DNA of 64,000 nucleotides, from positions 1 to 64,000 of the forward strand of contig CANQXE010000010.1 in the NCBI GenBank assembly GCA_947627725.1, given 5' to 3'. Of the stretch, positions 62,038-63,930 are shown piece after piece. This DNA comes from an uncultured Clostridia bacterium (GTDB taxonomy: Bacteria; Bacillota; Clostridia; Oscillospirales; Acutalibacteraceae). Below the pieces are notes generated by a model. It was not told the DNA's origin, made no database searches, and saw only the letters and a program-made list of their open reading frames with translations. Made by a program: the position numbers and the translations under genes. How positions within the stretch are numbered: position 1 is the first letter of the stretch; the number at the start of each line of letters is the position of its first letter.

Positions 62038-62709
62038 ATGTTTAATAAGCTGTGTAAAAAACTGTCTAATATTTTTTATAAAATTGATCAAAAAATTTTT
62101 TCCTTACATGACAGAATTTTGGACAAAAAAATATGCCATAGAAGTATAAGCGAGTATGTTCCGAGTGTCTTTCGCGATGACAAAAATGGGATAGGCTCAA
62201 CAGGCTCGGAATCAACGCATTATCTTATTCTTAATGAAATTTTTTCACACGTTAAGCTGACTGAAAATGATAATTTTATTGATATAGGCTGTGGTATGGG
62301 CAGAGTTCTTGCGTATCTTATCAATATGAAAGCGCCCTGTAAAATCACCGGTGTGGAAATTAATGAAAAGCCCGCGAATATAGCTTTTGAATGGACAAAG
62401 AATTATGATAATGTAAATGTTATTTTCGGCGATGCGTTTAATATTGATTTTGACAATTATAATGTATATTTTTTAGGCAGACCTTTTTTGCCGAAAACCT
62501 TTAAAGAATTTATTGAACAGTTTGAGCAAAAAATAACGCACCCGGTAACCTTTATATACTGGGTTGATCAGCAAAGCGGCTTTCTTCTCAAGGACCGCAA
62601 GGGTTGGGATATGCTATACCGTAAAAAATTTTTAAAGGTAAAAGGACTTCGCATTGCGTTTGTTGAGCAGGGTTTTTCTGTCTGGACCTATAATCCTGAT
62701 AACAAATAA
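62038..62709 (+). CDS. SAM-dependent methyltransferase of unknown target
   Basis: 223 residues. An N-terminal basic stretch precedes the SAM motif DIGCGMGRVLAYLINMKAP and the acidic strand end ITGVEINEKP; the C-terminal part ends in beta strands (FVEQGFSVWTYN). No DPPY-type motif. The ribosome site (AAGGGCG) is weak. The closest neighbours offer no clue to the substrate. Confidence 0.72.
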   Translation: MFNKLCKKLSNIFYKIDQKIFSLHDRILDKKICHRSISEYVPSVFRDDKNGIGSTGSESTHYLILNEIFSHVKLTENDNFIDIGCGMGRVLAYLINMKAPCKITGVEINEKPANIAFEWTKNYDNVNVIFGDAFNIDFDNYNVYFLGRPFLPKTFKEFIEQFEQKITHPVTFIYWVDQQSGFLLKDRKGWDMLYRKKFLKVKGLRIAFVEQGFSVWTYNPDNK

Positions 62710-62745
62710 AAAGTGTTGCAGTAAAAACTGCAACACTTTTTTTAT
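62708..62745. terminator. Bidirectional terminator, methyltransferase / 6S RNA
   Basis: AAAGTGTTGCAGT and ACTGCAACACTTT around AAAA, with A-run and T-run on either side. Confidence 0.85.
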
Positions 62746-62747
62746 AA

Positions 62748-62930
62748 ATCCACCCAGCCGCCTTGAACCGAGAATAACCTGCATCTAAAGCAGGTGGGTT
62801 TTACTCCGTTCACTTTGTGCTCCCAGCGTCCTGATTAACAGGGAGGTCTGCATTCCCGTTTCACGGAAGATAAATCCCTTAAAAAACGTGTTCGGGTTAT
62901 TAAGGCTCAAGGTTGTCGAGAAGGGCAGAC
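62748..62930 (-). ncRNA. ssrS: 6S RNA (RNA polymerase regulator)
   Basis: On the reverse strand a rod-like RNA of about 180 nt is closed by CCTTGAGCC (62904-62912) with GGTTCAAGG (62761-62769). The 5' side of the central bubble reads AACCCGAACACG; the 3' side carries GCACAAAGTGAACG, AACCCACCTG and the small hairpin CCTGCTTTAGATGCAGG, all typical of Firmicutes 6S-1. Further stems (CTCCC/GGGAG, TTCCGT/ACGGAG) make up the terminal arm. It mimics an open promoter and sequesters sigma-A holoenzyme. Ends are approximate. I see no good promoter between it and the upstream gene, so it may be processed from a DUF1292 transcript. Confidence 0.8.
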
Positions 62931-62956
62931 TTAATATTTATATTTGACTATATTAT

Positions 62957-63402: not shown

Positions 63403-63431
63403 TTGACAATCCATAAACGATGTGCTATTAT
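63403..63431 (+). promoter_or_regulatory. Promoter of the large structured RNA
   Basis: TTGACA (63403-63408), 17-bp spacer, TATTAT (63426-63431). The predicted start is near 63438, at the first helix of the RNA. Confidence 0.8.
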
Positions 63432-63520
63432 TTAGTTGAACAAAGGAGATAACCTTTAGGAAGTAGTTAAAGGTATATAGATAGAAACGCTTGTTCAATA
63501 AAATAAAGGAGGCTTGTCCA

Positions 63521-63568
63521 ATGGATTTAGAACCAGGTCAGACAAGCACTCGTAATGTAATCCAATAG
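63521..63568 (+). CDS. Possible 15-codon ORF inside the structured RNA
   Basis: AAAGGAGG lies 8 nt before ATG 63521, which opens a 15-residue frame (DLEPGQTSTRNVIQ after Met) to TAG 63566-63568. The ribosome site is near-ideal, but the same nucleotides take part in helices P3 and A, so translation may be prevented or regulated. It could equally be a structural motif. Confidence 0.25.
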   Translation: MDLEPGQTSTRNVIQ

Positions 63569-63899
63569 AATAACGGAAAACAGTATCGACAGAAGTAAAA
63601 ACGGAATTTACTGGCGGATACAAACTTTAAAAAGTAATTAAAAAGTTATTTAGCAGGGTTGGCAATTACATCGAGTGCAATGACAATTAAATAACTTTTA
63701 TATATAGATTTTTTTGATTATTTTCCTGCTGATAATTTGTAGCGTTAGCTATAATAAATTTAAATAATTTTAGGAATAAATTAATTTAAAGATAAAATTA
63801 ATTTAAGGTGAATTCCAATGGGCTAGTTAGTAACTTTACAGAGAATAAAATCTGAGGTTAGACCAATGTACTAGTTAATAAAATTTAATAAGGTAATTT

Positions 63900-63930
63900 C
63901 TCCCGATACTGAAAAGTGTCGGGAGTTTTT
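63900..63930 (+). terminator. Terminator of the structured RNA
   Basis: CTCCCGATACT and AGTGTCGGGAG (one G-U) around GAAA, then five Ts. Confidence 0.85.

Follow-up and report, generated by a model that had tools for sequence, protein, structure and literature searches.

In tmRNA a short ORF is set among pseudoknots, 6S RNA engages RNA polymerase, and the two-codon minigenes of lambda bar act through peptidyl-tRNA drop-off. According to the available part of PMC8708949, endonuclease cleavage of the txe mRNA may be countered by a mini-ORF of two codons, and one of six codons guards the AU-rich LEE4 leader against RNase E. GOLLD, ROOL and OLE appear in the accessible portion of PMC12286853 as large ornate bacterial RNAs, and raiA/ModT, in the excerpted text of PMC11706538, as a pseudoknotted RNA that acts in trans in Bacillota and whose 3´ extension is poorly conserved. 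Here we describe an RNA from the window (the whole stretch of 64,000 nucleotides of DNA that was analysed) that carries a short ORF and a string of two-codon ORFs, and thus looks built to engage ribosomes, not to encode a protein.

The interval 63403-63930 is a predicted free-standing transcription unit giving an RNA of ~500 nt, whose 5´ end probably lies near 63438 (Table 1). The consensus promoter and the strong terminator recorded in the initial annotation are both in place, and a regular-expression match to the promoter was found in 61 of the 62 homologues (TTGACA in 60, a 17-nt spacer in 57, TG before the -10 in 58). The same annotation spoke of an ornate large RNA with no protein gene and of ~490 nt without a real ORF. 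Its picture of a large, structured, stand-alone and pseudoknotted RNA stands, given synteny, covariation over 62 homologues and negative Rfam searches, but it overlooked the ORF inside the fold and the minigene array, and the claim of no real ORF falls, as AGGAGG with a 15-codon ORF (sORF1) and two minigenes are present and conserved in kind. The RNA is not a decayed coding region.

Table 1. Features of the transcription unit, with positions in the window and the basis of each assignment or its support among homologues.
Feature	Positions	Strand	Sequence or detail	Basis or support
Promoter	63403..63431	+	TTGACA - 17 nt - extended -10 TGCTATTAT	Sequence; same form in 61/62 homologues
P1 hairpin	63438..63496	+	GAACAA 63438-63443 / TTGTTC 63491-63496, variable inner stem	Partner search in homologues
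Shine-Dalgarno of sORF1	63507..63512	+	AGGAGG	AGGAGG 59/62, AGGGGG 3/62
P2	63512..63547	+	GCTTGTC 63512-63518 / GACAAGC 63541-63547; sORF1 start codon in loop	5/7 pairs two-sided
sORF1	63521..63568	+	MDLEPGQTSTRNVIQ-stop, ATG...TAG, 15 codons	ORF kept in 62/62
Long-range helix	63548..63676	+	63548-63566 with 63658-63676; sORF1 codon 10 to stop is one strand	16/17 pairs two-sided
P3/P3b	63583..63621	+	GTATC/GATAC and AGTAAA/TTTACT	96.5% and 87.1% paired
P4 hairpin	63624..63635	+	ACTTT/AAAGT	82.6% and 78.6% paired
P5	63642..63698	+	AAAGTTATTTA 63642-63652 / TAAATAACTTT 63688-63698	66.7% paired
Pseudoknot	63653..63729	+	GCAGG 63653-63657 with CCTGC 63725-63729 in P6 loop	85.5% paired
P6 hairpin	63716..63737	+	GATTAT/ATAATT	100% of cells with letters paired, 6/6 pairs two-sided
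P7 hairpin	63740..63751	+	TAGC/GCTA	73.0% paired, 4/4 pairs two-sided
Minigene 1	63805..63826	+	AAGG-TGAATT-CC-A-ATG-GGC-TAG; ORF 63818-63826	Sequence, conserved in kind
Minigene 2	63854..63874	+	GAGG-TTAGA-CC-A-ATG-TAC-TAG; ORF 63866-63874	Sequence, conserved in kind
Intrinsic terminator	63900..63930	+		Confirmed in sequence

The RNA is conserved in the genus and in two sibling genera. By blastn (E <= 0.01), 72 of 198 relatives were matched, many of them weakly. Within the genus, a covariance model, R1, built from 28 sequences, recovered the RNA from 61 of 80 genomes (44 of the 51 of high quality), with a single place in each; for G067, which is counted in the 61, the match is weak and partial (E 0.005). 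When the seven high-quality genomes missed by R1 were searched with laxer filters, G043 yielded a clear divergent copy by eye, and of the other candidates, L158-L163, the five tested (L158-L162) were not real copies. Neither G067 nor G043 belongs to the set of 62 homologues. Among 300 genomes from the family, the eight matches to R1 comprised five in the genus, two real ones in other genera (G112 and G227) and one false (G370), and among 394 genomes of the order the four true matches were all in the genus, with three weak matches being false. The false matches (G370, E 0.003; G158, G161 and G555, E 0.004-0.007) lie over open frames of at least 214 codons, without a Shine-Dalgarno (SD)-ATG or a nearby minigene. 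A mobile or viral element was also rejected: there was no match in plasmids or phages, the minigene pattern had 0 matches in viral contigs, and two matches to a looser tandem pattern are simple repeats by eye.

Rfam 15, in which OLE, GOLLD and ROOL are included, returned no family at gathering level in the window and none that was convincing at E up to 5, so none of the large classes that the initial annotation had left open (OLE, GOLLD, ROOL and raiA) was matched. A match to SpF22_sRNA over the 3´ end of the RNA, on the same strand, had 20.5 bits (E 0.32) against a gathering score of 55. Across 18 homologue loci, only T-box, 6S and tRNA matches were obtained. The two other genera were represented by one homologue each, and their matches, listed at E up to 10, all stayed far below gathering. 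The raiA/ModT model (RF03072) found nothing in the window and matched 0 of 118 relatives, in a search whose control genomes were likewise without a match. Genes for tmRNA (ssrA, RF00023) and RNase P RNA (rnpB, RF00010) lie elsewhere in the genome, at G000:C8:94846-95197 and G000:C4:78429-78771, respectively. To the extent that the models can tell, the locus is none of raiA, tmRNA, RNase P or 6S, nor any other Rfam 15 family.

Upstream of the RNA, a divergent DUF1292 gene (Pfam PF06949 in the window) was recognised by motif in at least 47 of the 62 homologues; of the others, 12 had no match, including one (G050) that has the gene by synteny, and three had <500 nt of upstream sequence. Beyond the DUF1292 gene is a 6S RNA candidate (RF00013) at 62743-62934 (-), whose 33.5 bits are below the gathering score of 46.4; 6S matches above gathering were seen in 5 of 18 homologue loci. 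The window also carries a Class I methyltransferase-like gene at 62038-62709 (+) (Pfam DOT1, Methyltransf), for which the other 11 loci of the comparison had no equivalent. Downstream, the next gene is of the window's family in 7 of 12 loci (mannitol dehydrogenase-family, then altronate-dehydratase-family; uxaB/uxaA-like) and different in five, for example valyl-tRNA synthetase, a GntR/ABC-transporter pair or a Na+/H+ antiporter-family gene. A short ORF, structure and a terminator upstream of a gene, with the same gene family next in those seven loci, are what a leader or attenuator of the downstream gene would present, but the RNA is kept in the five loci where the next gene differs. Because the downstream gene varies in this way, the RNA is not the leader of one gene, and we consider this reading, largely refuted by synteny, very improbable. 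T-box leaders (RF00230), separate from the RNA, occur downstream of it in 6 of 18 loci (L022, L029, L034, L035, L037 and L045), and valyl-tRNA synthetase is the next long gene in both mapped T-box loci (G038 and G050).

The minimum free energy of 63403-63930 is -105.8 kcal/mol (z = -4.24), and none of 100 shuffles was equally stable. Covariation, which had been proposed as a check together with the initial annotation, was examined over the 62 homologues and revealed strong two-sided change overall. In the model-aligned set of 62 (A2), 84.3% of 3749 cells are in standard pairs, 55 of 63 pairs have two-sided changes, and double changes fill 677 cells, compared with 88-138 after sliding partners by one to three columns; because A2 was fitted to the nested helices, only its counts for P5 and the pseudoknot are free of fitting bias. 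The unfitted alignment of 28 sequences (A1, made with MAFFT, with the structure drawn from its first row and L024, L030 and L034 left out) has 83.8% of cells paired, two-sided changes in 47 of 65 pairs, and 191 double-change cells versus 28-51 when slid.

The long-range helix had been drawn initially as an 18-bp bulged helix between 63546-63565 and 63659-63678, and it was confirmed with the limits given in Table 1. Among the 62 homologues all 11 outer pairs and five of the six inner pairs change on both sides, with 87.3% and 83.9% of cells paired, this helix being part of the model used to align them; on the unfitted 28-sequence alignment the counts are 9 of 11 and 5 of 6 (14 of 17 together). 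Of the 60 homologues listed for P1, 56 have a partner of at least 5 bp for the GAAC strand, in AA/TT, TT/AA and AC/GT versions, although this partner was sought freely, so that the support is weaker than that from alignment counts, and in two of the 56 (L082 and L106) it is distant and doubtful. The stretch from promoter to sORF1 is expanded to ~300 nt in L082 (1201-1500, G033).

A perfect 12-bp helix (63641-63652 with 63688-63699) was also part of the initial annotation. It is present in the sequence of the window, but is doubtful among homologues, where the corresponding P5 is paired in 66.7% of cells for the 62 and 69.1% for the 28, with two-sided changes only towards its ends and none in the TTAT core. 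The pseudoknot claimed at the same time is supported, but through GCAGG/CCTGC, which crosses the long-range helix; since GCAGG is inside that helix and CCTGC outside, the pseudoknot holds even without the 12-bp helix. These five pairs, which lay outside the model, are paired in 85.5% of cells and all have two-sided changes, but in few cells, from a few clades; the variants GTCGG/CCGAC and ACAGG/CCTGT were noted by eye.

A strong SD and, embedded in this fold, an ORF of 10-19 codons are found in all 62 homologues, and the ORF has exactly 15 codons in 37 of them. The other two frames often close early, +1 within 3 codons in 26 of the 62 and +2 within 5 codons in 38. Variation by codon position in 19 homologues amounts to 0.32/0.30/0.47 bits for codons 2-7 and 0.61/0.69/0.68 for codons 8-15, and, given this small third-position excess, the sORF1 peptide is probably not the product of the RNA. 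With codon 10 to the stop forming a strand of the long-range helix, and the ATG lying in the P2 loop, the geometry suggests that ribosome passage and the fold would be mutually exclusive in the window.

Between P7 and the terminator, the 62 homologues have 142 CCRATG sites, one to four in each, usually of the form GG-N5/6-CC-R-ATG-NNN-stop. In a tally without any rule on the stop (another ORF count admitted only ORFs ending within 10 codons), 129 of the 142 reach a stop after one or two further codons, compared with 25 of the 129 remaining ATGs of these stretches, not counting 7 with an immediate stop (Fisher p ~2e-35), and with 51 of 142 in frame +1 (~5e-23), values that overstate significance because the homologues are related. 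Exactly 101 sites are ATG-NNN-stop, having the SD, AUG, single sense codon and stop of a two-codon minigene; 28 are one codon longer, and 140 have at most 7 codons including the ATG. The smaller peak in frame +1 is taken to reflect sequences like ACTAAGTAA; at that codon, frame +2 has 15 stops. All three stop codons are used (TAA 111, TAG 20, TGA 11), and GG stands 5-6 nt ahead of CC-R-ATG in 134 of the sites (a gap of 6 nt in 88, 5 nt in 46, 8 nt in three, 7 nt in two and 4 nt in one; GG absent in two).

In the window, the ATG of minigene 2 is 48 nt downstream of that of minigene 1, and among 80 intervals between sites none is <45 nt (54 at 45-69, 22 at 98-117 and four elsewhere), which may reflect the room needed by neighbouring ribosomes. 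At a further site, 18 homologues have an extra ORF, starting with ATG in 12 and TTG in six, which varies most at third codon positions (0.58/0.68/0.95 bits); these 18 were selected for exactly 10 codons, and a count with a 10-codon ceiling gave 12, all exactly 10. Of the two ORFs examined for the selected peptide that would mark a dual-function small RNA, the extra one has such a third-position excess and sORF1 has little. Folded separately, three minigene stretches had no local structure. Judged from its sequence, this ORF architecture looks more like a mark of translation than like a hairpin bound by a protein.

In a mechanism of the lambda bar type, rapid peptidyl-tRNA drop-off would sequester tRNAs (Tyr, Gly, His, Phe) and slow translation, in keeping with SD-led ORFs whose second codons are mostly TAC (65 of 142) and GGC (26 of 142). 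Second codons vary among homologues, 14 different ones being used in all, and inhibiting translation chronically from a near-consensus promoter would carry a high cost, making this explanation improbable in our view. The linkers between minigenes are AU-rich and unconserved by eye, which fits the leading rival explanation, that the 5´ pseudoknotted domain is the working trans-acting part and that the minigenes load ribosomes to shield the AU-rich 3´ arm from ribonucleases. The txe and LEE4 cases, as related in part of PMC8708949, are precedents for such shielding, but it leaves unexplained why a weakly conserved 3´ arm is retained at all and why sORF1 sits within the fold, and we give it only a minor chance of being correct.

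Minigene arrays are not confined to this RNA. An exact search for one minigene form in contigs of GTDB species found 20 loci, a number from which the prevalence of the kind is not readable because the pattern demanded ATG-TAC-stop. Six of the 20 are this RNA, two are apparently coding by eye (L115 and L126), one (L129) is ambiguous, and 11 are intergenic-looking and without an R1 match. Five loci from other Clostridia (L116, L118, L124, L127 and L134) have SD-CC-ATG minigenes, in arrays or in sORF-then-minigene layouts, with no Rfam match over them; a longer sORF is upstream in the four viewed by eye (L116, L118, L127 and L134). L119, L120, L122, L125, L128 and L132 are Lachnospiraceae-type loci of ~300 nt, Hespellia stercorisuis among them, that by eye have a promoter, SD-CC units and an ATG-TAC-stop minigene and, except for L128, where the locus sequence is incomplete, a 5-6-codon ORF near the 3´ end. 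When the Hespellia RNA was used to query 116 relatives by blastn, four matched, one of them being the genome it came from. A strict tandem-minigene pattern gave 0 matches in 391 genomes of the class, but misses the window's own genome and so is uninformative on absence.

All six Lachnospiraceae-type loci have one SD-CC unit with CCA or CCG at the position of the ATG, with the in-frame stop still following, and since this replacement recurs in six (related) loci the SD-CC motif may also have a non-coding role. CsrB acts as a decoy for CsrA, and the repeats could be decoy sites for an SD-pairing C-rich small RNA or for an RNA-binding protein. Such sites would account for the units without an ATG and for a short repeat with a constant GG-N5/6-CC core along unconserved linkers. 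A binding site needs no in-frame stop, yet the stop is kept with all three stop codons in use, and it needs neither of the start codons, ATG and TTG, that alternate at the extra 10-codon ORF; decoy sites thus seem to us quite unlikely, if slightly less so than the lambda bar type.

We favor, with about even confidence, a translation-engaging RNA that senses or soaks up initiating ribosomes. We counted in its favor the SD and sORF1 in 62 of 62 homologues, the stops, the spacing, the extra ORF, the unfolded minigenes, the variable downstream genes, the helix covariation and the nearby 6S candidate; against it we counted the CCA/CCG units, the third positions of sORF1 and the frame +1 peak. Ribosomes would initiate both on sORF1 and on the minigenes. 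In module 1 (63438-63751), the pseudoknotted fold, the 3´ part of sORF1 would serve as a strand of the long-range helix with the start codon held in P2, and a translating ribosome would have to open the fold. Module 2, the weakly conserved and mostly AU-rich 3´ arm, would offer one to four minimal ORFs, at least 45 nt apart, for repeated initiation and near-immediate termination. The RNA may in this way sense or sequester initiating ribosomes, or initiator tRNA and initiation factors, and its folded or loaded state would report or buffer translation capacity, by analogy to 6S RNA with RNA polymerase. A bolder form of this model, which we put forward tentatively and consider rather unlikely, if a little less so than ribonuclease shielding, is a "6S RNA for ribosomes". 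In this form, a regulatory RNA of the core genome would hold several initiating ribosomes at start-stop sites set at ruler-like intervals and would refold its pseudoknotted domain according to ribosome supply, with the same trick being used by otherwise dissimilar RNAs of Clostridia (Oscillospiraceae-type and Lachnospiraceae-type arrays). If ribosomes do load on the RNA, it would be a means by which bacteria gauge or buffer their translation capacity, and RNAs classed as "noncoding" that have ribosome footprints would merit re-examination.

The RNA resembles 6S RNA (RF00013) in its proposed logic, an RNA engaging a core machine, and in being encoded near a 6S candidate, but it differs in sequence and fold, and that candidate is separate. 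Like tmRNA it has a short ORF among pseudoknots, but the tmRNA of this genome is elsewhere. With raiA/ModT it shares a pseudoknotted fold, an origin in Bacillota and poor conservation of its 3´ part; it differs in having no match to the raiA/ModT model and in having an embedded ORF and minigenes, which do not figure in the ModT descriptions within the available part of PMC11706538. From GOLLD, ROOL and OLE it is set apart by the lack of any Rfam match at E up to 5 and by its array of translation starts, a feature not described for them in the accessible portion of PMC12286853. A stand-alone RNA that joins a pseudoknotted sORF domain to an array of two-codon ORFs was found neither in Rfam nor in the open-access, partly excerpted literature on mini-ORFs, ribosome sponges and large RNAs; subscription papers or supplements may hold a candidate. 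With the two-codon minigenes of axe-txe, LEE1 and lambda bar it shares the sequence of SD, AUG, one codon and stop. The described minigenes, as far as the available part of PMC8708949 extends, occur singly or in pairs within mRNA leaders, on which they act in cis, whereas here several are carried by a stand-alone structured RNA.
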